Below are positions 21,908 to 43,786 of a stretch of DNA of 43,786 nucleotides, in pieces. The stretch is from the IMG/VR virus record IMGVR_UViG_3300028802_000468, positions 1-43,786 of that record; one strand, given 5' to 3'. The stretch comes from a virus. The translations under genes and the position numbers were made by a program. How positions within the stretch are numbered: the stretch's first letter is position 1; each line of letters starts with the position of its first letter. The notes under the pieces are model-generated. The model did no database searches. It saw nothing but the letters and a program-made list of their open reading frames with translations, and had not been told where the DNA came from.

Positions 21908-23233
21908 CTAGCTGTATCGGTGGTCGCGAAGAGCGGCCGCTAAGTAGGTCGGAAGCATCTCGCGCAGTCCGCTCTCGACGGCGTCGCGCAAAGCGTCTTC
22001 AAGCGGCACATTCTGTGCTTGCACCCGCGCCACGTCTCCCCCTTCGATCGGGGGCAATTCCTCTTTCTCGCGGACTTCGTTGATGGTCCGCCAGCCGTTG
22101 CGCAGGCCGGATTCGTGGAACCTGGCGCGCGCTGCGCTGTCGGCCGCCAGGAACGCCTCCATATTGAATTTTGCGTAGAGCCCAGAGGCACGCTCCGCTG
22201 GAGAGAGAAGTTGCTTTCGGATCGATTGCTGAATGCGAATCAGGTATGGATTGAGCGTGAACTTCTGGAAGGTAAGAACCTGCTGTTCCAGGCTTGCCGG
22301 ATAGCCGCTCGCCTTCTCGTTGTGGCCAATCATGAACGGCGGCACACCCGCCCACCGACATATTTCTTCGACGCTCCAACTGCGGCTCTCCAGCAGTTGT
22401 GCATCGTCAGCATTCATCGAGATAGACTCCCAGCTGGAGCCGAACTCGAATACGAAAGGTTTGCCGGCATTGTCCGGGCCGGTGAAACGCTTCTCCAGTT
22501 CCTGGTAGAAATCCGTCCTCTGTTCCGGGGTCAGGGGCTTGTCGACTTTCACGCCGCCTGACGGCTTCAGACCGTTGGCGAACATTGCGCCGGCAGTCCG
22601 ATCGGCGGCAATCGCGATGCCTAGCGACTCCCGAGCATATGCAATTGTCGACAGGCCGCCCAGAGGGCCGCCGCCGAAGCCGCGGACGTGGAAAACGTCA
22701 TCCTCTGTCAGGTCGTAATGCTCGCCCTCATGCGACCAGCGATAACCGATCCGGCCATCGGAGCGGCGGCGCACGGCGACAATATCCGGCCTCACCGGCT
22801 CAAGCCCGATCAGCCGCGAACCTTCCTTCATCTTGCGTGCGTAATGATTACCACGAAGCAATAAGGAGATGACCAGAAACTCTATGTAATCGAGCGGCGT
22901 CTGATCAGCATTCGGGCTATCAAATACCCGTGAAAGCTGCGCCTCGTCGGCTAAGGTAGGCGACTTATCACTCGGCCGCTTGCGATAAAGCTGCAGTGGC
23001 AGAGAGCCAATGGTCGAAGAGAGCAGACGAACACAGGCGAAGAACGCGCTCAGCCTCATGGCGGCATGGTCGTTAACGGTCACTCCCGCCGAACTTCCTC
23101 CGCCAACGGCGTTCTGGGGATCGCGAATCTTCGGCGAGCGCCCCACTTCCAGCCATCCAGACACCGCGGTCACGGCCTTCTGCCACAGGCTCGGGGGCGT
23201 GGACGCACCGGTGATCTGGCGCAAACTGCTCAC
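21908..23233 (-). CDS. HK97-family portal protein
   Basis: This 441-residue protein has the phage portal features: a core with SAFFACVRLLSSTIGSLPLQLYRK (about 62-85), LLLRGNHYARKM (about 126-137), a clip region with EEICRWAGVPPFMIGH (about 290-305), and the C-terminal NEVREKEELPPIEGGD (about 395-410). It forms the dodecameric gate through which TerL packages DNA. It overlaps the terminase gene by 4 nt (23230-23233). Length is near the usual 400-450. Confidence 0.95.
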   Translation of the reverse strand: MSSLRQITGASTPPSLWQKAVTAVSGWLEVGRSPKIRDPQNAVGGGSSAGVTVNDHAAMRLSAFFACVRLLSSTIGSLPLQLYRKRPSDKSPTLADEAQLSRVFDSPNADQTPLDYIEFLVISLLLRGNHYARKMKEGSRLIGLEPVRPDIVAVRRRSDGRIGYRWSHEGEHYDLTEDDVFHVRGFGGGPLGGLSTIAYARESLGIAIAADRTAGAMFANGLKPSGGVKVDKPLTPEQRTDFYQELEKRFTGPDNAGKPFVFEFGSSWESISMNADDAQLLESRSWSVEEICRWAGVPPFMIGHNEKASGYPASLEQQVLTFQKFTLNPYLIRIQQSIRKQLLSPAERASGLYAKFNMEAFLAADSAARARFHESGLRNGWRTINEVREKEELPPIEGGDVARVQAQNVPLEDALRDAVESGLREMLPTYLAAALRDHRYS

Positions 23234-27086: not shown

Positions 27087-30035
27087 TTAGAACGGAACAT
27101 CGTCATAGCCTCCTGGGAGGAAGTCCGCAGCATCGGGGGGGTGCGGGGGCACCGGCGTGCCCTTCGGCAAGGCCTCGTCCGCGAACGTCGCGGGCGGCGG
27201 CAGCTCGGCCTCGACCGGATGCATATGACCCTTCTCATCGACGGTAACGAAATCGCTCTCCTTGAAGCGCAGCGCCACGTCCTGCCATTGCATCGTGCTC
27301 GACTTGGCGATCTTGAAGCTCTTGCGCCGCATCTGCGAATTGAGATGCTTGGCGGACCAGGGTTTTCCCGATTGCGGCAACTGCCCGGCCCAGTTCTGCC
27401 AGGCTACGAACAGCCGGTGCAGCGGCGTCGCCCCGACAGTCATCCCCTTCACCCTCGCGATGCACAGCTCGAGGAAGCCGCCGAGCAGATCGTTCTCCGC
27501 CTGATATTCGCGGGTCGCCTCCTTCACCGCCTCCGGCATGGCAAGGCCCTCGCTGAGGTAGCGCAGCGCGCCCCGGACCATGCGGTTGAGGATGCCGTTG
27601 GCTTCGGCCTTCAGCTTGTCCTTGAGCCGCAGATCCTGTTCTTCGTCGGGAATGATCACGCCCCAAGGGATCACCTGCACCCGGCGCTGGATGCCGTGAT
27701 CCGTGCTGATGCGCGGCATGTTGTTCGCCATGACCGTGTTGGTGAAGGTGATCCTGAGCTCGAAGGGCGGCTTCATCAGCTCGCGCACGCCGCCCTTTGA
27801 CTCATCACTGGTGAGCGATTTGATGAGGCCATCGGCGAACTTCGAATTGTCCTCAGGCTCGTTGGCGTAGACCATGCGGCGGCCGGCGAGCGCGGCCAGA
27901 TCGGGCGAGGCGTCGGCGCCCTTGCGGGTGCGCCCGGCGTCCATGAAGGTCTCGATGCCCGTCGACCAGGCATAGTCGCCCAGGATGTGCGCCTTGGTGG
28001 CGACCCACACGCCTTTGCCGTTCGAGCCCTCGCCGTAGAAGACGGCCATCTTCTGCGCGTCGGCGAGGCCCAGGCTGTTATAGCCCGCCCAGGTGTCGAG
28101 GAAGTCGCGCATCTCGATCGTCGGCTGCACCTTCTCTAGAAAGGCGTCGTAGGCGGGACAGGCGGCGGCGGGGTCGTAGGAGGCGTTGCCGATCTTGGTG
28201 ATCCGGTCCTCGCGCCGATGCGCGCGCAGGCTGACCGACGCCGGCAGGCCTTCATCGGGCCTCAAGAAGACCAGCGTGCCGTTCTCCATGTTGAGCAGCA
28301 GCGGGTCCGCATCGAAATCGTCGGGCATGGCCGAAAGCCGCGCCTCGGCGAGCTTGGCGATGCAGTTGATATGGCCAGCGCCCTCGCTTGTTCGCCCCCA
28401 CGAGCCGATCTTCTGCGAAAACAGGACGATCTCGCCGCTGGACTTGATCTGGGCGATATAGTCGTGGCGCTCGCCGTCATTGTCGCTCTGCCGCGCCAGG
28501 TGTCGCTGCCACCGCCAATTCAGGGTCTTGCGCTTGCGCGTCGCCTGTATCGTCTTGATCGGCAACCGATCATCGCCATCCTCGTCGTCATAGTGATCGC
28601 TGTCGTCGTCGAAGCCTTCCTTTGGCGGGAACGGCACACCGCTGGCGCGGACGATCTCGGCCTCATCCTGTATCGCGCGCATAGTGAGCTGCACGGCGTG
28701 GCCCAGCAGCGCCATCGCCATGTCGCGGTTCCACCGGCGACCGTCCCAGGCCAGCCACCCCCACGCCTCGACGAAGAGGAAATCCGCCCCGTAACGAGCA
28801 AGGAAGCGCTCGAGGTTGCCTAGGTCCGTCTGGGGTAGAAAGCCGCACTTCCGCGTCAGATCACCATCAGCAGCGCCCCCACGCCCCCTTCCTCTGTCAT
28901 CTGAGCCCAATGATCCCGTTTGGGAGGATGGCTTGCCATAATCTTTCTCGAAGGGGGATGCTGGGGGCAAGGGGGGAGAGGGCGAGCGAGGGCGGGAGGA
29001 TGCGTTTCGGCCAGAGCGAGAAACCCGGTCACGAGCGGCGGCCGCGATCTCGGAGAGATCGCGAGGGTTGTTGATCCCGGCGGACCAGCCGCTGTCGATC
29101 GTCGCGATGAGCTGGCGATCGTCGTCGCGGCCCGGATTGGCGCGCGCGGCAGCCTCCAGGCTCGATCGCGCGATCGTCTCGTCCAGCGCGCCTGACGCCA
29201 CCAGCGAGGCAATCTTGAGCGCGCTGTCGTTCAGCTGAGGGTTGCGCCGGCCACTCGGCGCGTCTCGCACGGCCCGGCATTCGAGATCGAGCCCGGACAG
29301 CGCATATTTGCGGATCGCCTCGCGCTCGGCCTCGCCGAGGTCGGAAGGCATCGGCCGCGGCGCCACGCTCGGCCGAGCGGCGGCGTCCGGGTGCGTCTTG
29401 CGCTCCCGCAGCACTTCGACCAGCCGCGCCGGTGCCCGCGCGATCCCGCCGATCGGCTCCTTGCGGTGCCAGCGATATTTGAGCCCGGCTTGGCCCTTGA
29501 CCGCGTTCGGCCCCATCACGCTCGGCGGCGCGATCACATAGCCGCCCAGGCCGCGGACGTCGACATGCTCGGGCAGGTTGTCACTATTGGTGATCGCCGG
29601 CCCGTCGTCGTTCTGCAGCAGATAGGCATGGACCCCGTCCGAAGGCGTCAGCGCCGCCAGCGTGACCGGAAATTCGCAGCCGAGCTGCGCCTCGAGCTCG
29701 CCCTTGAGCCGCTCCAGCGTCCAGACCTCGCCCGTATCCTCCTCCACCCGCGGGTCGAAATCGACGATGAAGAGCCTGAGCCCGCCGGCGTCGACTGTCG
29801 GATGACCGGTGGCGAGGCCGATCAACGCCTTGGGCCAGCGCTTCCACCAGGCGCCAATCTCCGCCGGATCGGTCGAGGCTCGGCTGACGCCGCCGCTGTT
29901 CGGAATCGGCTTGCCGGCGTCGTCATTGAGCTTGGCGAGGAGCGGCTGCTTGTTCTTCGGGTTGCACGGGAAGACGGGCCATCCGCGCGCGGCATAAGCG
30001 AGCGCGGCGTCGAGAAGGGGGTTGTCGGCCGTCAT
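27087..30035 (-). CDS. Bifunctional primase-polymerase / SF3 helicase (replication protein)
   Basis: This 982-residue protein has an N-terminal Prim-Pol domain (about 1-215) with the catalytic D-x-D in FIVDFD (about 89-94), VHAYL (about 133) and GLGGYVIAPPS (about 161-171). A proline- and serine-rich linker (about 345-395) follows, then a D5_N-like region (about 620-660), and an SF3 helicase with Walker A EGSNGKG (about 668) and Walker B-like MVYANEPED (about 722). It is expected to prime and unwind DNA for phage replication. ATG at 30035 overlaps the upstream stop (ATGA). An extra ten codons upstream are unlikely. Similar proteins occur in P4-like elements, but this gene is within a normal siphophage early region. 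Confidence 0.93.
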   Translation of the reverse strand: MTADNPLLDAALAYAARGWPVFPCNPKNKQPLLAKLNDDAGKPIPNSGGVSRASTDPAEIGAWWKRWPKALIGLATGHPTVDAGGLRLFIVDFDPRVEEDTGEVWTLERLKGELEAQLGCEFPVTLAALTPSDGVHAYLLQNDDGPAITNSDNLPEHVDVRGLGGYVIAPPSVMGPNAVKGQAGLKYRWHRKEPIGGIARAPARLVEVLRERKTHPDAAARPSVAPRPMPSDLGEAEREAIRKYALSGLDLECRAVRDAPSGRRNPQLNDSALKIASLVASGALDETIARSSLEAAARANPGRDDDRQLIATIDSGWSAGINNPRDLSEIAAAARDRVSRSGRNASSRPRSPSPPLPPASPFEKDYGKPSSQTGSLGSDDRGRGRGGAADGDLTRKCGFLPQTDLGNLERFLARYGADFLFVEAWGWLAWDGRRWNRDMAMALLGHAVQLTMRAIQDEAEIVRASGVPFPPKEGFDDDSDHYDDEDGDDRLPIKTIQATRKRKTLNWRWQRHLARQSDNDGERHDYIAQIKSSGEIVLFSQKIGSWGRTSEGAGHINCIAKLAEARLSAMPDDFDADPLLLNMENGTLVFLRPDEGLPASVSLRAHRREDRITKIGNASYDPAAACPAYDAFLEKVQPTIEMRDFLDTWAGYNSLGLADAQKMAVFYGEGSNGKGVWVATKAHILGDYAWSTGIETFMDAGRTRKGADASPDLAALAGRRMVYANEPEDNSKFADGLIKSLTSDESKGGVRELMKPPFELRITFTNTVMANNMPRISTDHGIQRRVQVIPWGVIIPDEEQDLRLKDKLKAEANGILNRMVRGALRYLSEGLAMPEAVKEATREYQAENDLLGGFLELCIARVKGMTVGATPLHRLFVAWQNWAGQLPQSGKPWSAKHLNSQMRRKSFKIAKSSTMQWQDVALRFKESDFVTVDEKGHMHPVEAELPPPATFADEALPKGTPVPPHPPDAADFLPGGYDDVPF

Positions 30036-30535
30036 GCCGGCACCTCGGGCAGGACGCTGCCCCACCTGGTCTTGTCCAGTTGCTCCGAGGCCCTAGGGGC
30101 GCGTCTGCGGGTTGGTGTGTCCCAGGTCCGCCCGCGCACCCGCTGCTCGATGACGAAGCCGGCCGCACGCAAGGAGGCCCCGCTCTCCGCCTCGAGCGTG
30201 TAGGTGACGACCCTATCCCCGCCCATGAGCTGCCAGATCCGCTTGGCGCGGCCATATAATTTTGAGCATGTGTTTCGCGGCGCCGCAGGCGAGGCGCAGA
30301 GGCGGAGTATCTCCGCGGTGCCGGGCTGGTGGAGCAAACGCGCCACGGGGCGGCCGACGATCGCGACGCCCACGAGCGCCCCCCCCCATTCCATGCCGAT
30401 CGCGAATTTGCCGCCGTCATTCGACGTGCGGGCGCTATGTCGATGGTGAGCCTCGACGAAATCGTTCGCCGCGCGCAGGGTCAACGGCACGATCCGCATC
30501 CGTGTGCGGCCATCTTGATCGCCCTCGGCGCTCAT
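30032..30535 (-). CDS. XF1762-family protein
   Basis: This protein has 167 residues from ATG 30535, which overlaps the upstream stop (TAATG). ATG at 30499 is a possible shorter start. The main domain contains LRAANDFVEAHHRHS, KFAIGMEWGGALVGVAIVGRPVAR (in part), EILRLC, CSKLYGRAKR and GASLRAAGF, the complete signature of the phage XF1762 family. That family has a GNAT-like alpha/beta fold, but its substrate is not known to me. It is placed directly upstream of the primase, and overlaps it by 4 nt. Confidence 0.85.
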   Translation of the reverse strand: MSAEGDQDGRTRMRIVPLTLRAANDFVEAHHRHSARTSNDGGKFAIGMEWGGALVGVAIVGRPVARLLHQPGTAEILRLCASPAAPRNTCSKLYGRAKRIWQLMGGDRVVTYTLEAESGASLRAAGFVIEQRVRGRTWDTPTRRRAPRASEQLDKTRWGSVLPEVPA

Positions 30536-30954
30536 TACGCAGCTCGCAGCTCCAATGTGAATTGATCCAGATCCGCCACGGCAGGCGCGGCCTCGCCGCG
30601 CGGCGCCGCGAAGGCGCGCTCGGCGTCGGCCTGCGCCTGGCGCTGCTCGCAGCGCAGCTTGATCGCCCGCATCCTGATCGCTTCCTCTGATCGGCCGAAC
30701 CGCCCGGTCAGCTGGGCCGCCTTGTCGCCCGCGCCGACAGCCTGCAGCAGCGCGATATCCTCTGCGGGGCTCCAGCCCTTGTTGCGCATCGCCAGCGTCC
30801 CCGCGCGCTGCAGCCTCTCGATCTGGTAGCGCAGCGAGCGAGACGACACGCCGAACCCGAAGGCGATCACCTTCACCCGCTCCCCAGCGCAATAGCGACG
30901 GATCAGCTCAGCCTCCCGCTCCGGCGGCCAGGCGGCGTTGGCGGCGGCGCTCAT
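30535..30954 (-). CDS. SANT/HTH DNA-binding protein, GcrA-like N-terminus
   Basis: This 139-residue protein has two DNA-binding-like helix-turn-helix segments. The first (about 8-50: WPPEREAELIRRYCAGE ... SSRSLRYQIERLQ) resembles the N-terminus of GcrA-type regulators, which starts with W-x-x-E-x-x-x-x-L. The second (about 59-100: GWSPAEDIALLQAV ... SEEAIRMRAIKL) is SANT/Myb-like. An alanine-rich tail completes the protein. It lies in the early operon between a small unknown and XF1762. It could be a transcription regulator, but the target is unknown. Confidence 0.65.
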   Translation of the reverse strand: MSAAANAAWPPEREAELIRRYCAGERVKVIAFGFGVSSRSLRYQIERLQRAGTLAMRNKGWSPAEDIALLQAVGAGDKAAQLTGRFGRSEEAIRMRAIKLRCEQRQAQADAERAFAAPRGEAAPAVADLDQFTLELRAA

Positions 30955-32140: not shown

Positions 32141-32766
32141 TACCTGTCAGCTTGTGTTGGGGAGAGGCCGCAGCGCTCAAGAACCGAAAGCTGCTCAGCG
32201 ATTTCCGTCAGAGCGTTGGCCACTCGCTGCCCCTTGGCGGCAGCAATCATGGTGACGACGCGCCGCGCCTCTTGAAGGCCGGCTCTAAACCCGGCGCGCT
32301 GTCCCTCCACCGCTGAACCGCATTGGAGGGCGCGGAGTGCGTCGGCTGCACGATAGCAAGCGTTGATGCGATCTTGGGTTTCCAGAAGCGGAAGATGGTC
32401 GATCCATGTTCCACAGGCTTCAACAGCGTCGGCCAGATCGTTCGCCTCGATCGGGGCGGGAGCGAGGGCTTGCAGCCCTTTCGACAACTCGGAGAGGCAG
32501 GAGCGCGCTGCGCCCGCAATAACCGACCCGCCCGCCGCTTTCCGATAAGTGTCGTCGCAAAGCTCAATGGCCTGCTTCAGGCCGTCCTGAACTCCGGAAA
32601 GATAGGGGCGGCAAAGGACGTCCAGGCGCTCGATCTCGTCGGCGGCTTTGATCGCGGGATTGCGATAAAATTCCCAAGGGACACGCCAGACATCCGCGCC
32701 CAATTCCCGCAGCCAATATAGCAGATGCGCCCTCGCTTCGGCCTGTGCTTTTGCTGCATCCGTCAT
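32140..32766 (-). CDS. Hypothetical helical early protein
   Basis: This 208-residue protein is almost wholly alpha-helical, with tryptophans in the N-terminal part (about 18-35, LYWLRELGADVWRVPWEFY in part) and several cysteines (52, 70, 90, 118, 137, 149, 199). The start at 32766 overlaps the helicase-methyltransferase stop by 4 nt. Open sequence upstream to 33333 is a shadow. Its location right after the methyltransferase suggests a related function, but nothing in the sequence says which. Confidence 0.6.
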   Translation of the reverse strand: MTDAAKAQAEARAHLLYWLRELGADVWRVPWEFYRNPAIKAADEIERLDVLCRPYLSGVQDGLKQAIELCDDTYRKAAGGSVIAGAARSCLSELSKGLQALAPAPIEANDLADAVEACGTWIDHLPLLETQDRINACYRAADALRALQCGSAVEGQRAGFRAGLQEARRVVTMIAAAKGQRVANALTEIAEQLSVLERCGLSPTQADR

Positions 32767-35408
32767 TCCGCCGCCTCCAGCTCTTCCGGGACATCCTCGT
32801 CGCCGGGACCGACGGCTTCCTCCGCCGCCAACAGATCGAACAGGGTGAGAGACTGGCGGGCATGATCGGCCTCGCGCAGGATCGTCACGCCGTCGTCGAA
32901 ATAGGAGGGATTGAGCTCGACCCCGAGCCCGCGGCGGCCGAGCCGCACCGCGCGCAGCGGGACCGTCATCAGCCCGCCGAACGGATCGTAGACCAGCTCG
33001 CCGGGGTTCGAGAAGCGGTTGATCAGGCGGTCGACGATGTCGAACTGGAGCGGGCAGAGGTGCCGCTCGCGGCCCTTGGCGACCTGGACCCCGTTGAGAG
33101 TGCGCATGCGGGTCACGTCCGACCAGACGTCGGGATGGCGGGAGACGGGCGGCAGCGTCATGAAATGGGTCGGGAGCTGATTTGCGTCGTCGAGCGCCTT
33201 GGCGATCGCGACGTGCCGGTCGTAGTCGTAGACGCTCTCGGCCGAGAAGCCGCGGAACATACGATAGACCGTCTTTGTGTCCAGGCCGAGCAGTTCCTCC
33301 GGCTCGAGCAGCCGGTCGCCGCGCGACTTCCACAGCGCGTGCGCGTCGAGCTGCCAGCGGGCGCGGCTATAGTCGGCCTTGCTCTTCTTCACCGGCTCGT
33401 CGGCATAGCCGTCCGTCGTGTCCGTGGGCGGCTTGCGGAACAGCAGCACATATTCGGGCATGCCGACGCTCATCCGGCTACCGTCGTCGCACTGCATCGA
33501 CCAGCCGAGCCGATAGGTCGCATTGTTCTCGCGGACCACGTCGGTCACGACCGTGATCATGCCCATGTAGAACAGTCCGTGCCGGCGGCGGTGCGCGATG
33601 CACTCGGCGTGGAAGGGCGAAACGCTCTGGAAGCTGACGCCGTCGAGGCCACCGGGGCGAATGCGATCCTTGACGTGGAAGCACATCATCCGCCCCGGCT
33701 TCAGCGCGCGCACCAGGTCCGGCAGCAGATAGTCCATCTGCGCGAAATAATGGGCGTCGTTATCGGTGTGGCCGAAGTCGTTATAGCTCGGCGTATATTC
33801 ATATTGGGTCGAGAAGGGCTCCGACGTGACGATCAGGTCGAGGCTGTTCTCGGCCAGTTGCGCGGCCTCGATCACCGTGTCTTGGTTGATGACCCGCCAA
33901 GCCGGCTTGCCGGCGATCGAAGCACCCGAGACTTCCTCGCGCCGCTCGACTCCGATCGACCGACCGAGCATGTCGTCCGCGCCGGCGAGGCCCAGCCCGT
34001 AGGTCCTGATGATCTCGCTCATCCGGCGGCACATTTCCTCGTGCCGCTTCCATTTGCCTTCGAGGCTGGCGCGCACGCTGCGCTCGGCTTCGGTGAAGAT
34101 CAGGTCGATTCGCACCGGCTTCGTCTGCAGGAATCGCTGGATGCGGTGGATCGCCTGGATGAAGTCGTTGAACTTGAACCCGATGCCGAGGAAGATCGCC
34201 CAGGCGCAGTGGCGCTGGAAATTGCAGCCGGAGCCCGCGAGGATCGGCTTGGCCGCCAGCTCCTGAATATCGCCGTCCGAAAAGCGGATGATCGCCCGCT
34301 CGCGATCGTCGAGGTCTTGAGCGCCGTAAACCGAAACCACGTTCGGCACCGCCGCCTCGATCGCCGCGCGCTCGGCCTCGAGGTCGTGCCAGAGCAGGCG
34401 GTGCGCGCCGGGATCCTCGCTTCGAAGCTCGAGCATCTTGGCGATCCGGGCGCCGAGGCTGTCTTTCTTCTCGCGCGCGGCGTCGACGACGCCGATCGCG
34501 CTCGCCTTCAGCAGACGGCGCTGTCCGTCCGCCTCCTCGCCGGCCTTGCGATGGTCGGAGGGAACCTCGTGCCAGCGCACGTCCAGCGGCGGCAGGTCAT
34601 AGCCCTCGTCGGAGAAGCCGAGATCGGAGGGGCGCTGGATGAAAGCCGCCCAGCTGTTCACCCACAGCCAGAACTCGGCCTCCTTGTGCGGGTGGATGGT
34701 GAGCGCGTCGGCCTTCTCGCTGTTGCGCTTGAAGAAGCGGGTCTTGGCCTGGCCTACGTCCATGACTTCGAGGAAGGCCGCGTAGGCGAGAAGCTCGATA
34801 TATTCGTTGGGCGAGGGCGTCGCGGTGGCGACGAACTTGAACCGGACGCCGTCGAACAGCTTCATGAACTCGCGGAAGGTCTTGGTCCCGCCGAAGCCGC
34901 GCAGACAGGACGCCTCGTCCAGCGAGACGGCGGTCAGGATCGACGTGTCGATCTTCCCTTCGCGCACCGATTCGTAGTTGGTGAGGTAGAGCCCGCGGAA
35001 CCCGGCCGCCTGCGCGTCAAGGATCTCGCGCGTGGTGCGCACAAAGAGGACGTCTATGCCGAGCTTGGCCGCGTCGGTCTTGAACTCTGTGACGACGGTC
35101 AGCGGGATGACGATCAGGCACAGTGGCCAGCGCGCTTCGCCGCGCTCGATCTCCTCTGCGAGGAGGCGCATCGCCTCCAGCTGGATCATGGTCTTGCCGA
35201 GCCCGAAATTGGCGAACAGCGCACGTCGGCCGCCCTCGACCAGCCATTTGACCAGGACCGGCTGATGTCGATGCAGCAGCGGATGCACGTCGCCGATCGC
35301 CACCGGCAGCCCGAGCTCCGGCGCCCGCACCGCCTTGGCCGCGACGAAGTCGAGATAGGACAAAGGTTCTGAGCCCGGGTCCGCTAGGATGGCGGAGCCG
35401 TACCTCAC
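32763..35408 (-). CDS. SNF2-like helicase fused to a beta-class DNA methyltransferase
   Basis: This 881-residue protein joins two enzymes. The N-terminal part (about 1-450) is an SF2 helicase with Walker A GLGKT (69-73), DEAS (164-167), motif III ATATPSP (194-200) and a motif VI-like QAIHRIQRFLQ (418-428). The C-terminal part (about 500-850) is an N4-cytosine/N6-adenine methyltransferase of permuted order: catalytic motif IV DLIVTSEPF (524-532), then the SAM-binding motif DPFGG (808-812) and ELNPSYF. The usual S/D-P-P-Y/F is SEPF here. It probably modifies phage DNA and escapes host restriction, but could also act in replication. The start is GTG 35408; no clear Shine-Dalgarno is seen. It is coupled to the downstream gene. 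Confidence 0.88.
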   Translation of the reverse strand: MRYGSAILADPGSEPLSYLDFVAAKAVRAPELGLPVAIGDVHPLLHRHQPVLVKWLVEGGRRALFANFGLGKTMIQLEAMRLLAEEIERGEARWPLCLIVIPLTVVTEFKTDAAKLGIDVLFVRTTREILDAQAAGFRGLYLTNYESVREGKIDTSILTAVSLDEASCLRGFGGTKTFREFMKLFDGVRFKFVATATPSPNEYIELLAYAAFLEVMDVGQAKTRFFKRNSEKADALTIHPHKEAEFWLWVNSWAAFIQRPSDLGFSDEGYDLPPLDVRWHEVPSDHRKAGEEADGQRRLLKASAIGVVDAAREKKDSLGARIAKMLELRSEDPGAHRLLWHDLEAERAAIEAAVPNVVSVYGAQDLDDRERAIIRFSDGDIQELAAKPILAGSGCNFQRHCAWAIFLGIGFKFNDFIQAIHRIQRFLQTKPVRIDLIFTEAERSVRASLEGKWKRHEEMCRRMSEIIRTYGLGLAGADDMLGRSIGVERREEVSGASIAGKPAWRVINQDTVIEAAQLAENSLDLIVTSEPFSTQYEYTPSYNDFGHTDNDAHYFAQMDYLLPDLVRALKPGRMMCFHVKDRIRPGGLDGVSFQSVSPFHAECIAHRRRHGLFYMGMITVVTDVVRENNATYRLGWSMQCDDGSRMSVGMPEYVLLFRKPPTDTTDGYADEPVKKSKADYSRARWQLDAHALWKSRGDRLLEPEELLGLDTKTVYRMFRGFSAESVYDYDRHVAIAKALDDANQLPTHFMTLPPVSRHPDVWSDVTRMRTLNGVQVAKGRERHLCPLQFDIVDRLINRFSNPGELVYDPFGGLMTVPLRAVRLGRRGLGVELNPSYFDDGVTILREADHARQSLTLFDLLAAEEAVGPGDEDVPEELEAAE

Positions 35409-36004: not shown

Positions 36005-36499
36005 TCATTCTTGCTCCAGGGCGAGCGCAGCCAGCGCGTCGAGGCAGGCCAGCCGCTCCATCGCTTCGGCAATCTCGCGGCGAATATCGGTGTCGCGAAC
36101 CTCCTGCGCCGTGACGCCGCCTGGCATCGCCCGCAGCAGACGATCCTGCACGTCACCGAAATCAGCGACAGCTGCCGCGAGCGCCAAGCACCAATCGCTG
36201 TTGCCGGGCTGGACTTGGGGCTTCGGAACCAGGAGAAAGCCGGCCTCGCCGGCCAAATAGCGGGTGACGTGCGGGTGCCCGGGCAGCCCGTGGGTTATCC
36301 CCTCCAGCGCTACGACGACGTCGATGGGCGCGAAGTCAGGCGCATTTGGTACGCCATAGGCTGAGAGCCGCGCTTGGCTTTTGCCTGTGTCAGCCGCAGC
36401 GGCTTCTTGCCCGCCGGCGGCGCGGACTAGGGCTTTGGTCGCCGCCTTCGCGCGCTGAAGCGGCGGAGAGTGGACGACGCTGCGCCGATCGCCGCTCAT
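36005..36499 (-). CDS. Probable phage regulatory protein
   Basis: This 164-residue protein has an N-terminal DNA-binding-like segment (about 16-50: LQRAKAATKALVRAAGGQEAAAADTGKSQ, in part), followed by LSAYGVPNAPDFAPIDVVVALE (in part). This ordering, helix then S-x-Y-x-x-P-x-x-P-D-x-x-P-I-D-V, occurs in alphaproteobacterial phage regulators beside the Cro/repressor pair. A C-terminal helical part (about 100-164) carries D-T-D-I-R-R-E-I-A-E. Its start overlaps the Cro-like gene stop by 4 nt. May be CII-like; the precise function is unknown. Confidence 0.65.
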   Translation of the reverse strand: MSGDRRSVVHSPPLQRAKAATKALVRAAGGQEAAAADTGKSQARLSAYGVPNAPDFAPIDVVVALEGITHGLPGHPHVTRYLAGEAGFLLVPKPQVQPGNSDWCLALAAAVADFGDVQDRLLRAMPGGVTAQEVRDTDIRREIAEAMERLACLDALAALALEQE

Positions 36500-36957
36500 G
36501 CCGCCACGCCCGCTTCGTCAGCCGTGGGTGATGGCGAAGGCGAAGAGGCTTGGCTGCTCGATGCCGACCTCGTTTCGCCGTTGCCCGCGCGCGGGCTCGA
36601 CATGCTGGAAGAGGTCGCAGAGAAAGGGTGGCCGGGGCCGTCCCCCTCGCCGGTATTCTCCGCTTCGGAGCAAATAATTTCGTCGGTTTTAGTTGCTGAC
36701 TGGATCGGCCATTCGGCTGCAGAACTTCCCGCATGCAACGGGAGATCGCTTTTAGCTTCGGGAGGCAGGAAATCTTCCAGCCGCAAGATGCGGTGTCTCG
36801 CGGCGGCCGCCTTGATTATCTTGGGCCAGGCGCGCGACGGAATGTCGCGGCGATTGCGCCATTGCCGCACGGTGACGCCGAGCTCGTCGATGTCGGCGGC
36901 CATCGCTTCGGCGTTGCCGCCCCACACATCGTATATGGGCTGGAGGTGCTGTGACAT
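36496..36957 (-). CDS. Cro-like regulator
   Basis: This 153-residue protein has an N-terminal Cro-type helix-turn-helix (about 2-55: IYDVWGGNAEAMAADIDELG...VRQWRNRRDIPSRAW) and a long Ser/acid-rich disordered tail (about 75-153). It is divergently transcribed from the repressor, the usual arrangement of the lysis-lysogeny switch. ATG at 36957 lies only about 8-9 nt past the predicted -10 box and has no Shine-Dalgarno, so the message may be leaderless. Frame extension to 37053 covers the operators and is rejected. The tail is long for a Cro protein. Confidence 0.75.
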   Translation of the reverse strand: MSQHLQPIYDVWGGNAEAMAADIDELGVTVRQWRNRRDIPSRAWPKIIKAAAARHRILRLEDFLPPEAKSDLPLHAGSSAAEWPIQSATKTDEIICSEAENTGEGDGPGHPFSATSSSMSSPRAGNGETRSASSSQASSPSPSPTADEAGVAA

Positions 36958-36965
36958 GCTGTCAC

Positions 36966-36993
36966 GTAATACGCAGCGTATTATCCCTGTCAA
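36966..36993 (-). promoter_or_regulatory. Leftward early promoter (cro promoter)
   Basis: On the minus strand TTGACA (36988-36993) and TATTAC (36966-36971) are separated by 16 bp. The -35 is a perfect consensus. Operator O2 covers its first two bases and operator O1 its -10 box, so repressor should block it. Transcription would start near 36958-36960, right at the ATG of the Cro-like gene. Confidence 0.75.
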
Positions 36994-37030
36994 TACCCCT
37001 TGTATTAGCGGATTTGCTACGCTGCGCATT
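36967..37030. promoter_or_regulatory. Three phage operators spaced 24 bp
   Basis: O1 AATAC-GCAGC-GTATT (36968-36982) and O2 AATAC-CCCTT-GTATT (36992-37006) are exact matches to the same ten-base palindrome arms. O3 GCTAC-GCTGC-GCATT (37016-37030) is a weaker match. Centres are 36975, 36999 and 37023, exactly 24 bp apart. O3 touches the repressor ATG at 37031, so it may regulate repressor synthesis. Confidence 0.85.
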
Positions 37031-37768
37031 ATGGCGAGCCGCAAGGATATCATGGCCGAACGGTTGCGGGAGGCCCGACAGGATGCCGGCTACGGCACGG
37101 TCGCAGCGGCGGCCGAGGCGTTCGGATGGTCCCCGGCTACGCTTACCAGTCACGAAAACGGTACGCGGGGCTTCGACGTGGATGCCGCTATTCGCTATGC
37201 GCGCGCGTTCCGGCGCCAGCCTGGTTGGTTGCTGGGCCTGGATCACATCGAGGCGCCACAGCATGGGCCCGTTGGAGCATACACTGTCGTTCGGAAAATC
37301 CCGCTGCTCGGAACTGTGGCCGCGGGGATCTGGCGCGAAGCGTCGGTGCTTGATGCCGACGAGCCTGAGGAAATAGATTTTACCGCTTTGACCGGCGATG
37401 AGGGCGAAGAGATGTTCGCGGTCAATCTGGAAGGCCAGAGCATGAACCTGACCCTCCCGACCGCGTCCACCCTCATTTGTCGGCGGATCGGGTTCGGCAG
37501 GATCGAGGCCCGGCCCGGCGAGCTGGTGATCGTTCAACGCCAATCTCACGATCTGGTGGAACTGACCTGCAAAAGGCTGGCGCTGGTTGAAGGCCAATAT
37601 GTCCTGCTCAGCGAGTCGGACCGCCCCGAATTCCAAAAGCCGATCGTCCTGGGCGCGCCCGATCTTGAACATGCAGCGGACGAAGAGACGCGGGTGATCG
37701 GCGTCGTGCGTCGCGCAATCCTGGCCAGCTTCCCGCCTCCAGCGAGCAGTGCAGGGACGCTCCAATAA
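37031..37768 (+). CDS. CI-type phage repressor, S24/LexA-like autopeptidase
   Basis: This 245-residue protein has an N-terminal helix-turn-helix (about 9-68: RLREARQDAGYGTVAAAAEAF and SPATLTSHENG) and a C-terminal S24 domain (about 88-232). The autocleavage site is A98-G99 in VAAGIW, the nucleophile is S137 in EGQSMN and the general base is K181 in ELTCKRL. So RecA-promoted self-cleavage should switch the prophage to lytic growth after DNA damage. ATG at 37031 directly follows operator O3 and lacks a Shine-Dalgarno; ATG 37052 with AAGGA nearby would remove seven residues. Its stop overlaps an operator of the next promoter. Confidence 0.93.
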   Translation: MASRKDIMAERLREARQDAGYGTVAAAAEAFGWSPATLTSHENGTRGFDVDAAIRYARAFRRQPGWLLGLDHIEAPQHGPVGAYTVVRKIPLLGTVAAGIWREASVLDADEPEEIDFTALTGDEGEEMFAVNLEGQSMNLTLPTASTLICRRIGFGRIEARPGELVIVQRQSHDLVELTCKRLALVEGQYVLLSESDRPEFQKPIVLGAPDLEHAADEETRVIGVVRRAILASFPPPASSAGTLQ

Positions 37769-37807
37769 TACATAACGTATTGACATAGGCGTTACGACAC
37801 GTATTAA
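37767..37807 (+). promoter_or_regulatory. Rightward early promoter with two operators
   Basis: TTGACA (37780-37785) and TATTAA (37802-37807) are 16 bp apart. Operator AATAC-ATAAC-GTATT (37767-37781) overlaps the -35, and GTTAC-GACAC-GTATT (37791-37805) the -10; their centres (37774, 37798) are 24 bp apart. AGGAGG (near 37824) precedes ATG 37835. The repressor should therefore also silence the whole rightward operon. Confidence 0.8.
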
Positions 37808-37834
37808 TCCGCCTCCTGACCATCAGGAGGCCCC

Positions 37835-38209
37835 ATGCTCGACAACCACGCTCCATTCCCGCTCGCAGGCAGCGCCGCGCTCATCAATCTCGACGGCCGC
37901 CGCGCCCTTGCCCGCATCAACCTGGTGCACGACGACGGCACCCGCACCGTCTTCATCGGCAATCAGTTCGGCGCGTCGGCGACCAAGCGGGTTCCGCTTA
38001 CAGAGCTGATCGACGGGACGCCGCTCAGCGACGCGGAGGTCGCCGAGCTGGCGAAGCTCGACCGGGAGATGGCTGGCAAGGCCCGCGTCTCGGCCAAGAA
38101 GCTCCAGCGCTTCAACGTCCTGATGGACCGCCAGGCCAACGCCCCGGTCCTCGAAGGCCTGCTCGCCCGCCACCGGCGCAGCCTCGAGCGGCAAGGGCAA
38201 GCGGCATGA
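37835..38209 (+). CDS. Hypothetical early protein
   Basis: This 124-residue protein has a short beta-rich start (about 12-50) with INLDGRRALARINLVHDDGTRTVFIG (in part), then a charged helical C-terminal half (about 60-120). A strong AGGAGG site precedes ATG 37835. It is the first gene of the rightward operon and is coupled by ATGA to the next. First genes of such operons often encode anti-repressor, recombination or host-takeover functions, but no family is recognised. Confidence 0.65.
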   Translation: MLDNHAPFPLAGSAALINLDGRRALARINLVHDDGTRTVFIGNQFGASATKRVPLTELIDGTPLSDAEVAELAKLDREMAGKARVSAKKLQRFNVLMDRQANAPVLEGLLARHRRSLERQGQAA

Positions 38210-39306: not shown

Positions 39307-39704
39307 GGATCGCGGCGGCGCCGCGATCAGGGGCCGGTGCGGCGTCAATGCCCCGACGGGTCAGGCGTTCCAGAAAGAGGGGGTCGCGCACGCCTGAGGG
39401 CGTGATCTACTGCGGCCGCCCGACGGTCCGCGGCAACCCCTTCGACTGGCGCCGGTTCGGCGTCGCCCGCTCGGTACGCCTCTACGAGCAATGGTTCGAC
39501 GGCAAGCTCGCCGCGCTGTCCCTGGAGCGGCTCGGCTTCTCGACTGGAGAAGTCGACGCCCTGTTTCGCTGGCGCGCGCGCCTGCTCGCCGAGCTGCCCC
39601 GCCTGCGCGGCGCCGACCTCCAATGCTGGTGCCCCGAGACGGCGCGCTGGTGCCACGTCGACATCCTCATCAAGCGCGCCAACGCGCCGGAGACCTTCCA
39701 ATGA
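39303..39704 (+). CDS. DUF4326-like protein
   Basis: This 133-residue protein has an arginine-rich N-terminus (about 1-32), then VIYCGRPTVRGNPFDWRRFG (in part, about 34-53), a helix with LYEQWFDGKL, and the C-terminal LRGADLQCWCPETARWCHVDIL (in part). Both ends match DUF4326: Y-x-G-R-x-x-x-x-G-N-P-F and L-R-G-x-D-L-x-C-W-C-...-C-H-x-D-x-L. The conserved cysteines and histidine may bind metal. The function of the family is not established. ATG 39303 overlaps the previous stop; the MTase gene overlaps its end. Confidence 0.85.
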   Translation: MRIAAAPRSGAGAASMPRRVRRSRKRGSRTPEGVIYCGRPTVRGNPFDWRRFGVARSVRLYEQWFDGKLAALSLERLGFSTGEVDALFRWRARLLAELPRLRGADLQCWCPETARWCHVDILIKRANAPETFQ

Positions 39705-42019
39705 AGCATCCCGACCTGCTCGATGGCGCCTCGCCCGTCGCCTTCATCCGCGTCTGGGGTGAAGGCATCATCGTCGACAATTTCGCTGGCGGCGGCGGCG
39801 CCTCGACCGGCATCGAGGCCGCGATCGACCGCCCCGTCGACCTTGCCATCAACCACGACGCCGAGGCGGTGGCGATGCATCTCGCCAATCACCCGGCGAC
39901 GCACCACCTCTGCCAGTCGATCTACGCCGTCGACCCGCTCGAGGCGGTGGACGGCCGCCCCGTCCTGGGCGCGTGGTTCTCGCCCGACTGCAAGCACTTC
40001 TCCAAGGCCAAGGGCGGCAAGCCGGTCGAGAAGAACATCCGCGACCTGGCCTGGACGGTCGTCCACTGGGTCGAGCGGCTCGGTCCGCAACTGCGCCCGC
40101 AGATCATCTGGCTGGAGAATGTCGAGGAGTTCCGCACCTGGGGCCCGCTCGGCGCCGACGACAAGCCCGATCCGAAGCGTAAGGGCGAGACGTTCGACCA
40201 ATGGGTCGGCCGCCTGAGGCGCGCCGGGTACAAGGTCCAGTCGCGCGAGCTGAGGGCCTGCGATTATGGCGCGCCTACCAGCCGCAAGCGTCTCTTCGTC
40301 ATCGCCCGCTGCGACGGTGAGCCGATCGTATGGCCCCAGCCGACACACCGTCCCTCCTGCGAGCTTGCGTTCGAGCGGTGGAACCGCGGCCTGGTGGAGC
40401 GCGGGTTCGAGAAATCGAGCCCGGCCTTGCCGCACTACCGCACCGCCGCCGAGATCATCGACTGGTCGATACCGTGCCCGTCGATCTTCACCCGCAAGAA
40501 GGAGCTGAAGGACGCGACAAAGCGCCGCATCGCCCATGGCATCATGCGATTCGTCGTCAACAGCCCGAAGCCGTTCATCGTCCCGATCACGCACAGCGGC
40601 GGCGACAGCAGGGTTCACTCGGCCGAGGATCCGCTGCGCACGGTCACCACGGCCGCGCGCGGCGAGTTTGCCATGGTCGCCCCGGTCTTCGCGCGCACCG
40701 CCCATGGCGAGCGCGACAGCAAGGGCAAGAAAAGGGGGAAGGGCGATCACGGCCCGGCCGAGCCGTTCCCGACCGTGCTGGCCAGCCGGGACAGTGCGCT
40801 GATCAGCGCGACGATCGTCGGTTGCGGCGGGCGGCGCGGGCAGAGCGGCCCGGTCGACGTCCAAGGGCCCTATCCGACGACGACGGCCAAGGCCGACGCC
40901 TGCCTTGTCGCGGCGGCGCTGGTGAAGCAGAACTTTGGACCGAACCCCGCCCAGGCGGCGGACGCCCCGCTTCACACGGTCACGACGCAGGGCAACAAGT
41001 TCGGCGTCCTTGCCGCCACGCTGGTCAGCGTCGACAACACCAGCACCCGGGCGATCCGCGCCTTCCAGGCACAGGATCCGCTGCGCACGATCACCAGTGC
41101 TGGCGGCGGCTTCGCGGCCGTAAGCGCGACGCTGATCCAGATGGGCTATGGCGAGCGGGAAGGGCAGGCGCCCCGCGTCCTCGATCTGCACATGCCGCTC
41201 GGCACCATTGTCGCCGGCGGGATCAAGCACAGCGTCGCGACCGCGCTCCTCGTCCCCCACGTCATGACGATGCGCAACGCGCAGAAGCCCTACACCGCGG
41301 GCGACGAGCCGACGCATACGATCACGGGCGGCGCGCATCAGAACCTGGTCAGCGCCTTCCTCCACAAATACCGGCCCGATCATCCCGGCCAGTCGCTTGA
41401 CGATCCGGCGCCGACGGTCACCGCGAACAGCTTCATCAAGCGCCCCGGCGGCGCGCCGCCGCTCGCGGTCGTCTGCGCCCATATGGAACAGGCCAACACG
41501 GGCGTCATCGGCCATTCGATGGGCGAGCCAGTGTCGACGATCGTCCAGAAGGGCTGCACGCAACGCCTCGTCGCCACCAGCGTCATGAAGCTGCGCGGCA
41601 CGTCGAAGGACGGCCAGCCGATCGACGAGCCGCTCCACACCGTCTCCGCCGGCGGCACTCACTTCGCGGAAGTGGCCGCCTTCCTGATCAAATATTACGG
41701 CAACGAGAATGGAGGCCACGGCTTCGACCAGCCGATCGGGACTGCCACGACCAAGGAGCGATTCGGCTTGGTCACCGTGACGATCGACGGCGAGGAATAT
41801 GTCATCGCCGATATCGGCATGCGGATGCTGACGCCGCGCGAGCTGGCCCGGGCCCAGGGCTTTCCCGACGATTACATTCTCGACCCGATCGTCAACGGCA
41901 AGCCGCTCACCAAGACGGCGCAGATCCGCATGATCGGCAACAGCGTCTGCCCGCCGCTGTCGGAAGCGCTGGTGCGGGCGAACCTGGTGGCCACTGCTGC
42001 AGAGGCAGTGGCAGCGTGA
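39701..42019 (+). CDS. C5-cytosine DNA methyltransferase with repeat-rich recognition domain
   Basis: This 772-residue protein has motif I IVDNFAGGGGAS (24-35), catalytic motif IV with C97 in SPDCKHFS, motif VI ENVEEF (139-144), motif VIII SRELRACDYGAPTSRKRLF (181-199) and, after a very long gap, motifs IX-X (LTPRELARAQGFPDDY ... MIGNSVCPPLSEAL) near 700-760. Between about 308 and 690, the target-recognition region repeats a motif of the type D/E-x-P-x-x-T-(V/I)-T about eleven times. Typical family members have far fewer copies. The enzyme should methylate phage DNA and protect it from restriction. ATG 39701 overlaps the DUF4326 stop. Confidence 0.9.
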   Translation: MKHPDLLDGASPVAFIRVWGEGIIVDNFAGGGGASTGIEAAIDRPVDLAINHDAEAVAMHLANHPATHHLCQSIYAVDPLEAVDGRPVLGAWFSPDCKHFSKAKGGKPVEKNIRDLAWTVVHWVERLGPQLRPQIIWLENVEEFRTWGPLGADDKPDPKRKGETFDQWVGRLRRAGYKVQSRELRACDYGAPTSRKRLFVIARCDGEPIVWPQPTHRPSCELAFERWNRGLVERGFEKSSPALPHYRTAAEIIDWSIPCPSIFTRKKELKDATKRRIAHGIMRFVVNSPKPFIVPITHSGGDSRVHSAEDPLRTVTTAARGEFAMVAPVFARTAHGERDSKGKKRGKGDHGPAEPFPTVLASRDSALISATIVGCGGRRGQSGPVDVQGPYPTTTAKADACLVAAALVKQNFGPNPAQAADAPLHTVTTQGNKFGVLAATLVSVDNTSTRAIRAFQAQDPLRTITSAGGGFAAVSATLIQMGYGEREGQAPRVLDLHMPLGTIVAGGIKHSVATALLVPHVMTMRNAQKPYTAGDEPTHTITGGAHQNLVSAFLHKYRPDHPGQSLDDPAPTVTANSFIKRPGGAPPLAVVCAHMEQANTGVIGHSMGEPVSTIVQKGCTQRLVATSVMKLRGTSKDGQPIDEPLHTVSAGGTHFAEVAAFLIKYYGNENGGHGFDQPIGTATTKERFGLVTVTIDGEEYVIADIGMRMLTPRELARAQGFPDDYILDPIVNGKPLTKTAQIRMIGNSVCPPLSEALVRANLVATAAEAVAA

Positions 42020-42444: not shown

Positions 42445-42650
42445 TGGGCGCTCACGCCAATTTGCCGAAAGCCGCCTATCCGAGCCAGGCCGTCATCGAC
42501 CGCACCGTCGCGGCCGCGCGCAAGGCGGGCCTTGACCCGGCCGGGCTCGAAGTGCTTCGTGACGGCACCATCCGCATCGTCGAGGCGCGCGCCATGCCGC
42601 AACAGCCAGCCAGCCTTTTCGACGAGCTCGAAGCCGCCGGAAAACTTTGA
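42444..42650 (+). CDS. Small protein upstream of integrase, excisionase candidate
   Basis: This 68-residue protein has one helix (about 14-28: SQAVIDRTVAAARKAGLD), a beta hairpin (GLEVLRDGTIRIVEAR, about 34-49) and a short acidic end (SLFDELEAAGKL, about 57-68). The start TGATG overlaps the previous stop, and its own stop overlaps the integrase ATG in the same way. Small proteins in this position sometimes direct excision, but the fold here does not visibly match the Xis winged helix. The role is an inference from neighbour and size. Confidence 0.6.
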   Translation: MGAHANLPKAAYPSQAVIDRTVAAARKAGLDPAGLEVLRDGTIRIVEARAMPQQPASLFDELEAAGKL

Positions 42651-43786
42651 TGAGCGACGTCGCCGGCGTCCATTTCGTGCGCAGCGCTCGCCCCGGCAAG
42701 CCGGTCCGCTGGTACGTCTATGCCTGGCGGGGCGGCCCGCTCATCATGAAGACCGCCGGCCCAACCAGGCCGAGGCTCGACAGGGAGGCGCTGAGCGCGC
42801 TCGCGGCCGAGCAGGCCAAACTCATCAGTCCGCGGGACGAAGGCACGCTGGCGGGCCTTGCGCGGCGCTGGCGGGGCACAATCCCCGCCAAGGCCAGCCC
42901 GGAATGGACCAAGCTCGCCGCGACGACGAAAGAAACTTGGGGCTACGAGCTGGACGCGATCGAGCGGAGGTGGGGTGAGACGCCGCTGGACGTATGGAAC
43001 GACCCGCGGATGGTGGCGAAGGTCATCGCCTGGCGCGATTCACGCGCAGCCACGCCGCGCGCGGCCGACATGGGCGTCCAAGTGCTCGGCGAGCTGCTCT
43101 TCTGGGGCAAGCTGAGGACCATGGTCGCAATCAACGTCGCTGCGGATGTCCCTGCGCTGTACGAAGGCGCGGACCGCGCTGAGATCATCTGGCTCGAGCA
43201 AGATGATGAAGCCTTCGCCTTGTCGGCGCTCGCTCTCAATCGCCCGCACGTCATCGACGGCCTCGATCTTGCCAACGTCACCGGCATGCGCCGAGGCGAT
43301 CTGATCGGCGTCACCTTTGACGAGGTCAGCGACCACGCGATCGTTCGCACCGCGCGCAAGAAGAGCCGGGGACGGCGGCGGCGGGCGGTGATCCCGCTGA
43401 TCCCCGAGAGCCGCCGGCTGATCGCCGAGCTGCGCACGCGGCACCGAGAGCCAGGGGTCAACACGCTGCTGGTCAATAGTCTCGGCAGGCCATGGACGGC
43501 GGGCAGCTTCACTGCGGCTTTCAATCAGATCCGCGATGCTGCCAACGGCGCCGCCGGCATAATCCACCCGGGCGATCCATCGCTGGGCGAGCCGGATCGA
43601 GTGAAGCATCTCCACGATTGCCGCGGCACGTTCGTGACGAAGCTTTGCCGCACAAATCTGACCGACGAGGAGATCGGTCGCATCGTCGCTTGGTCGCCCC
43701 AGAATGTCGGCAGGGTCCGCCGAACCTATGTTGACGACGCCGCCACCGTGGTGGCACTGAGCGAGCGGATCAGGCCTGCCCTGTAA
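42650..43786 (+). CDS. int: Tyrosine-type site-specific integrase
   Basis: This 378-residue integrase has an N-terminal arm-binding part (about 1-60), a core-binding helical domain (about 65-170) and a catalytic domain (about 180-378). The active residues are visible: R214 in TGMRRGDL, a lysine at about 237-238, H322-x-x-R325 in HLHDCRGTF, W348 in the place of the second histidine, and Y360 in RRTYVDD. ATG 42650 overlaps the previous stop (TGATG). It is transcribed toward the right end of the prophage, where the second attachment junction must be. It is the last gene of the repressor-controlled rightward operon. Confidence 0.93.
   Translation: MSDVAGVHFVRSARPGKPVRWYVYAWRGGPLIMKTAGPTRPRLDREALSALAAEQAKLISPRDEGTLAGLARRWRGTIPAKASPEWTKLAATTKETWGYELDAIERRWGETPLDVWNDPRMVAKVIAWRDSRAATPRAADMGVQVLGELLFWGKLRTMVAINVAADVPALYEGADRAEIIWLEQDDEAFALSALALNRPHVIDGLDLANVTGMRRGDLIGVTFDEVSDHAIVRTARKKSRGRRRRAVIPLIPESRRLIAELRTRHREPGVNTLLVNSLGRPWTAGSFTAAFNQIRDAANGAAGIIHPGDPSLGEPDRVKHLHDCRGTFVTKLCRTNLTDEEIGRIVAWSPQNVGRVRRTYVDDAATVVALSERIRPAL

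Follow-up and report, generated by a model that had tools for sequence, protein, structure and literature searches.

RATAC-N5-GTATY site pairs flanking a CI-type repressor gene point to a probable lambda-type immunity region in a temperate phage genome

The window analysed here, an entire IMG/VR viral record of 43.8 kb, carries at positions 37031..37768 (+) the gene of a 245-aa CI-type repressor, in which an XRE HTH and an S24 peptidase domain were recognised (Pfam PF00717, PF13560 and PF01381; phrog_4; E=1.2e-10 for PF00717). The cleavage site A98-G99 and the catalytic residues S137 and K181 are present and invariant in the alignment, and with this Ala-Gly site and Ser/Lys dyad the protein would belong to the cleavable S24 class (lambda CI/LexA type). 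The leftward operon, divergent from cI, starts with a small HTH-like protein in the position of Cro (36496..36957, -), which is conserved in relatives and has a helical fold. Its matches to Cro/lambda-repressor-like structures were weak (E > 0.4), and its score with carph-isopro (P0002; 32.8 bits) was below the NCBIfam cut-off of 38, so that it is not a member by score; it is referred to here as Cro-like. The second leftward gene (36005..36499, -) encodes a CII-like regulator (phrog_101, E=2.3e-18) and is followed by the helicase/methyltransferase, primase, terminase, capsid, tail and lysis genes. The rightward operon begins with a gene of unassigned function (37835..38209, +), for which no family match was obtained in PHROG, Pfam and NCBIfam profile searches, continues with a DNA methyltransferase gene and has at its far end the integrase gene (42647..43786, +; phrog_1, E=2.9e-18). 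The two DNA methyltransferases of this phage are encoded at 32763-35408 and 39491-42019, and a Mom-like DNA modification gene (phrog_1384; 30032-30892, -) adjoins the primase gene.

Five sites of the form AATAC-N5-GTATT, assigned to no strand, surround the repressor gene, three on its left with centres at 36975, 36999 and 37023 and two on its right with centres at 37774 and 37798. The centres are 24 bp apart within each group, and both the positions and this spacing were confirmed as the original prediction gave them. L1 (36968..36982; AATACGCAGCGTATT), L2 (36992..37006; AATACCCCTTGTATT) and R1 (37767..37781; AATACATAACGTATT) are exact matches with 0 mismatches, the weak sites L3 (37016..37030; GCTACGCTGCGCATT) and R2 (37791..37805; GTTACGACACGTATT) having 3 and 2 mismatches, respectively. 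L3 adjoins the ATG of cI, and at the other end of the gene R1 extends into the stop codon. At positions 36992-36999 of L2, AATACCC is strongly preferred in most relatives (GGGTATTGAC on the promoter strand), a preference that is absent from the other operators.

Each group covers an early promoter. The leftward, pR-like promoter (36966..36993, -) consists of TTGACA (36993-36988), a 16-bp spacer and TATTAC (36971-36966), and the rightward, pL-like promoter (37780..37807, +) of TTGACA (37780-37785), 16 bp and TATTAA (37802-37807). The claims that the two share one geometry and that their operators cover the same bases also proved correct: the distal operator (L2 or R1) supplies the first two T of the -35 box, and the proximal operator (L1 or R2) overlaps four bases of the -10 box. 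A pattern-scanning promoter prediction found neither of the two early promoters, because it demanded T at position 6 of the -10 box.

Outside these sites the motif has no exact copy in the window, and nothing there scores better than 2 mismatches. Three exact matches were found in the 43.8-kb window, where 0.001 were expected under a first-order (dinucleotide) model, and all three are the operators L1, L2 and R1; the original prediction had regarded frequent occurrence elsewhere as evidence against it. Besides the operator sites, a single match with 2 mismatches or fewer was found in the window, at position 22449. Taken individually, L3 and R2 are no better than chance (17 other words with 3 mismatches were listed in the window), and they were accepted because they stand in the 24-bp register and relatives have sites at the same places. 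A third operator on the right-hand (OL) side was not found, since the 24-bp positions flanking the right pair score 9 mismatches.

Relatives were gathered by scans with the repressor alignment and with the Cro-like protein, which together gave about 25 distinct phages, both operator pairs being scored in 24 of them. A scan of genome contigs with the window repressor alone gave no match, and neither did a blastn search of phage records with the left control region. In about 25 distinct relatives the repressor gene is likewise flanked by paired RATAC-N5-GTATY sites. This lends good support to the predicted arrangement, two divergent early promoters of identical geometry that flank the repressor gene and would be silenced by it in both directions. 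Some of these relatives reside as prophages in genomes of Sphingomonas and Sphingobium, and the records of two name them as Synechococcus phages. In L005 and L006, whose repressors are 92-93% identical to that of the window, all half-sites are kept (those of R2 included), L3 is identical, and the differences are confined to the N5 centres and to the DNA between sites. The L1 half-sites are also kept in relatives, R1 is likewise supported by them, and some have perfect sites at the R2 position. The two recorded with Synechococcus hosts are L007 and L112 (PP438430 and OM868076; GC 62-63%); the switch that they carry was otherwise seen in sphingomonad-type phages, and they may actually infect an alphaproteobacterium that was present in the culture.

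Operator spacing in the relatives is 24, 25 or 26 bp, with a promoter spacer of 16, 17 or 18 bp. The promoter register is conserved: at least 5 consensus -35 bases were found at a fixed base of the distal operator in 24/25 right pairs and in at least 14/25 left pairs. Since the -35 box is fixed relative to the distal operator, operator spacing equals the promoter spacer plus 8, a correlation that is partly built in, because the -35 TT and the -10 TAT lie inside the motif, the following GAC lying outside it. The 24-bp step had been taken as a sign of cooperative binding on one face of the DNA. Placement on one face did not hold, since 24 bp corresponds to 2.29 turns, about 103 degrees off, and relatives use 24-26 bp. 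Cooperative binding at the 24-bp pairs is plausible, because adjacent lambda operators, which are about two turns apart and are bridged by a CI tetramer, bind cooperatively (PMC8053113); the spacing itself follows the promoter spacer and hence is not independent evidence of cooperativity. Within this family the distance tracks the promoter spacer over 24-26 bp, which suggests that the commonly cited figure of 24 bp owes as much to the promoter as to the repressor.

The start of cI was placed at 37031. An alternative start at 37052, preceded by AAGGA, was disfavoured because the start codon of relatives lies 24 nt downstream of L2 (in 15/25 by script, and in L098 and L101 on reading the sequences) and because L005 has two synonymous changes upstream of 37052. 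A presumed -10 box of the cI maintenance promoter, TACGCT (37018..37023, +), lies 7 nt before the ATG; it was deduced from the relatives, most of which have TA at this position together with the start codon 24 nt after L2. L2 spans the -35 region of this presumed promoter and L3 overlies its -10 box. The third left site of relatives is 24 or 15 bp from L2, and both placements fall on the presumed cI -10 box. As the start codon of the Cro-like gene is 8-10 nt from L1 in most relatives, both messages would be leaderless, and the cI and cro mRNAs are presumed to be so. From the centre of L2 to the cI start there are 32 bp, 10 bp (about one helical turn) less than the 42 bp of lambda OR2, and in this respect the region departs from lambda sensu stricto. 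With L2 occupied, CI would sit partly on the -35 region of the cI promoter itself, which makes lambda-style self-activation from this middle site unlikely; its absence is a prediction of the shifted cI start.

The region has the organisation of a lambdoid immunity region. Two divergent early operons flank a CI-type repressor gene, the related operators to its left and right overlap the -35 and -10 boxes of both early promoters, and the CII-like, helicase and primase genes are on the operator-rich side, with integrase on the other. Lambda has the same gene order, with cro in the place of the Cro-like gene: cI, cro, cII and replication genes make up one arm, and int is on the opposite one. It likewise has three sites on the cro side, and in its annotated record the OR1-OR2 and OL1-OL2 pairs are 24 bp apart and lie on both early promoters. 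In lambda pR and pL, as in both window promoters, the -35 box starts 6 bp after the centre of the distal operator, the centre of the proximal operator is 18 bp downstream of the first -35 base, and four -10 bases are covered. The register is thus identical to the base, despite a different operator and genome. Lambda differs from the window in its operator sequence, in its promoter spacer (17 versus 16 bp), in having three OL sites where the window has two, in its OL-OR distance (2.3 kb versus about 0.8 kb) and in its cro, that of the window being presumed leaderless.

Further parallels were found in other phages. In immB of N15/phiKO2, whose repressor is CB, there are three OR and two OL sites (PMC4997575), with about 630 bp between OL and OR in phiKO2 (PMC8053113); this resembles the 3+2 set and the short distance of the window. 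OL controls repA in N15/phiKO2, unlike in the window. The S24 residues are present in the window repressor, whereas for CB it was reported that residues which other repressors and LexA have were not detected (PMC4997575). In the CI region of HK022 the OL-OR distance is about 700 bp, and looping by the repressor was shown for it as well as for lambda and phiKO2 (PMC8053113). HK022 differs from the window in its operators and in having an OL3, placed 53 bp from OL2. The leaderless cI and cro mRNAs of PY54 immB (PMC4488713), in which one operator was identified, match what is presumed for the window. The 'Synechococcus' phages Ssp-JY40 and Yong-M3-232 have a repressor 40% identical to that of the window and agree with it in gene order and in carrying RATAC-N5-GTATY pairs left and right of the repressor gene; they differ in a spacing of 25, in G as the usual outer base and in a recognition helix of YRHH or similar type (RHHENG). 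Given the precedents for the operator set, the short looped distance and the leaderless messages, the switch belongs to an already known kind; the find itself is well supported.

The five paired sites flanking the repressor gene are almost certainly, as judged from sequence and conservation, the repressor's operators, laid out like those of phage lambda. We consider it very probable that the region as a whole is a lambda-type immunity region whose repressor binds RATAC-N5-GTATY. A repressor dimer would recognise each palindrome, and dimers on the 24-bp pairs would probably cooperate. Repressor on L1 and L2 would cover the -10 and -35 boxes of the leftward promoter and silence the Cro-like, CII-like, replication and structural genes, and repressor on R1 and R2 would cover the same elements of the rightward promoter and thus the early genes through integrase. 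The 775 bp between the left and right groups would suit a repressor-held loop. L3, on the repressor's own start, would shut cI transcription at high repressor level, and induction would free both operons through RecA-type self-cleavage of the repressor at A98-G99. If correct, this provides a predicted operator code and a full control map for little-studied temperate phages, some of which reside in Sphingomonas and Sphingobium genomes.

Since operators are common to CI and Cro in lambda, the sites might mainly be operators of the Cro-like protein or of another regulator, the CI-type repressor binding elsewhere. The Cro-like gene is linked to the sites as closely as the repressor gene is, and its homologues bring in the same operators. 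Nevertheless, the sites flank the repressor gene on both sides, and the Cro proteins of phiKO2 and PY54 bind OR3 alone (PMC4997575, PMC4488713). The outer operator base also varies with the repressor recognition helix: it was G 92 times and A 34 times in phages with the helix YRHHENG, versus 15 A and 3 G in the window clade with LTSHENG, in a comparison that used positions outside ATAC which the -35 box does not fix. LTSHENG represents one clade, so the sequences suggest only weakly that the operator letters go with the recognition helix. Assignment of the sites mainly to the Cro-like protein or another regulator is very improbable. Repressor relatives with other helices (e.g. YIQHENG in L016, L017 and L020) are without the sites.

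The likeness of the two sides had been read as the outcome of duplication, with copies of one control cassette to the left and right of the repressor gene. Motif, spacing and promoter register are indeed alike, and left and right spacing are equal in 18/24 phages, but once the motif is set aside the two window promoters agree at 26% of positions, a value equal to chance. In the equal-spacing phages mean identity was 33-45% for pairs from the same phage versus 31-34% for pairs from different phages, and no relative was seen in which the two cassettes share spacer and flank. Lambda has the same matched pair, and common selection on a repressor-covered promoter explains the likeness; a recent duplication was therefore not borne out and we regard it as very unlikely. 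Chance occurrence of AT-rich palindromes at two promoters of a GC-rich genome draws on the base composition (41-49% GC in both operator regions versus 66% in the genome) and on the weak sites, which are not significant alone. It is refuted by the 0.001 exact matches expected and by conservation in about 25 divergent phages, and hardly deserves consideration.

The motif was also sought independently of any protein, by scanning viral contigs, not all of them independent, for two ATAC-N5-GTAT words at a distance of 14-43 bp. Among the 100 matches listed, 10 were at 24 bp and 22 at 25 bp, with about 2.4 pairs at each other spacing. Seven viral contigs of about 50% GC (L134, L136, L153, L157, L161, L173 and L182) contain AATAC-N5-GTATT pairs with 24-25 bp spacing twice, about 1-3 kb apart, and are possibly a further phage group with the same operator code. 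The exact pair pattern is also very rare among host-family genomes (9/301), where the two pairs of G004 (Sphingomonas sp. BK235) are the only ones known to lie on either side of a repressor of the window's family; a regulon of the host chromosome was accordingly rejected. A different paired palindrome, CATAC-N5-GTATG, was seen in host-family genomes (G259:C1:167529-167596, G140, G146, G121 and G304).

Downstream of the rightward promoter, an inverted repeat (37811..37831, +; GCCTCCTGA-CCA-TCAGGAGGC) forms a predicted 9-bp hairpin (fold z = -5.6) that would sequester the Shine-Dalgarno sequence of the first rightward gene. Hairpins occur at the same place in L007, L010, L011, L097, L099, L101 and L102, where the stem sequence varies, pairing is kept and the first gene differs. 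Rightward leaders reached z <= -2.5 in 8/10 cases, versus 10/373 leaders at other ribosome sites in these loci (Mann-Whitney p = 2.5e-7; the phages, being related, are not fully independent). Folds begun at the end of R2 had a mean z of -3.1. Folds begun at the predicted start site showed no signal (mean z 0.03), since this site is within the 5' arm of the hairpin; the RNA reading is therefore uncertain for the window group. An Rfam search of the window gave no match.

In the sphingomonad group, a conserved element of about 36 nt (TCASC-N-GATC-NCC-NNC-GGG-N-CGAAGAC-G-STGA) lies just after the CI-controlled rightward promoter. It is present in L252-L258, L117/L259, L260, L261 and probably L263 and L264, a pattern search gave seven contigs, and it is common to prophages with unrelated operator sequences. 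Compensatory changes were observed (2 pairs changed on both sides), and no Rfam match was obtained for the element. In twelve cases the leader that bears it also ends in a Shine-Dalgarno hairpin (mean z -3.0). Among the loci tested it is on the rightward arm only, whereas HK022 put is on both arms (PMC9378689). The element is a candidate antitermination or regulatory RNA. A bolder reading, somewhat less likely than not, is that the rightward region could be a two-layer switch, in which lambda-like operators are combined with presumed leaderless cI and cro messages and with control of one arm at the RNA level, by translational gating or put/nut-like antitermination.
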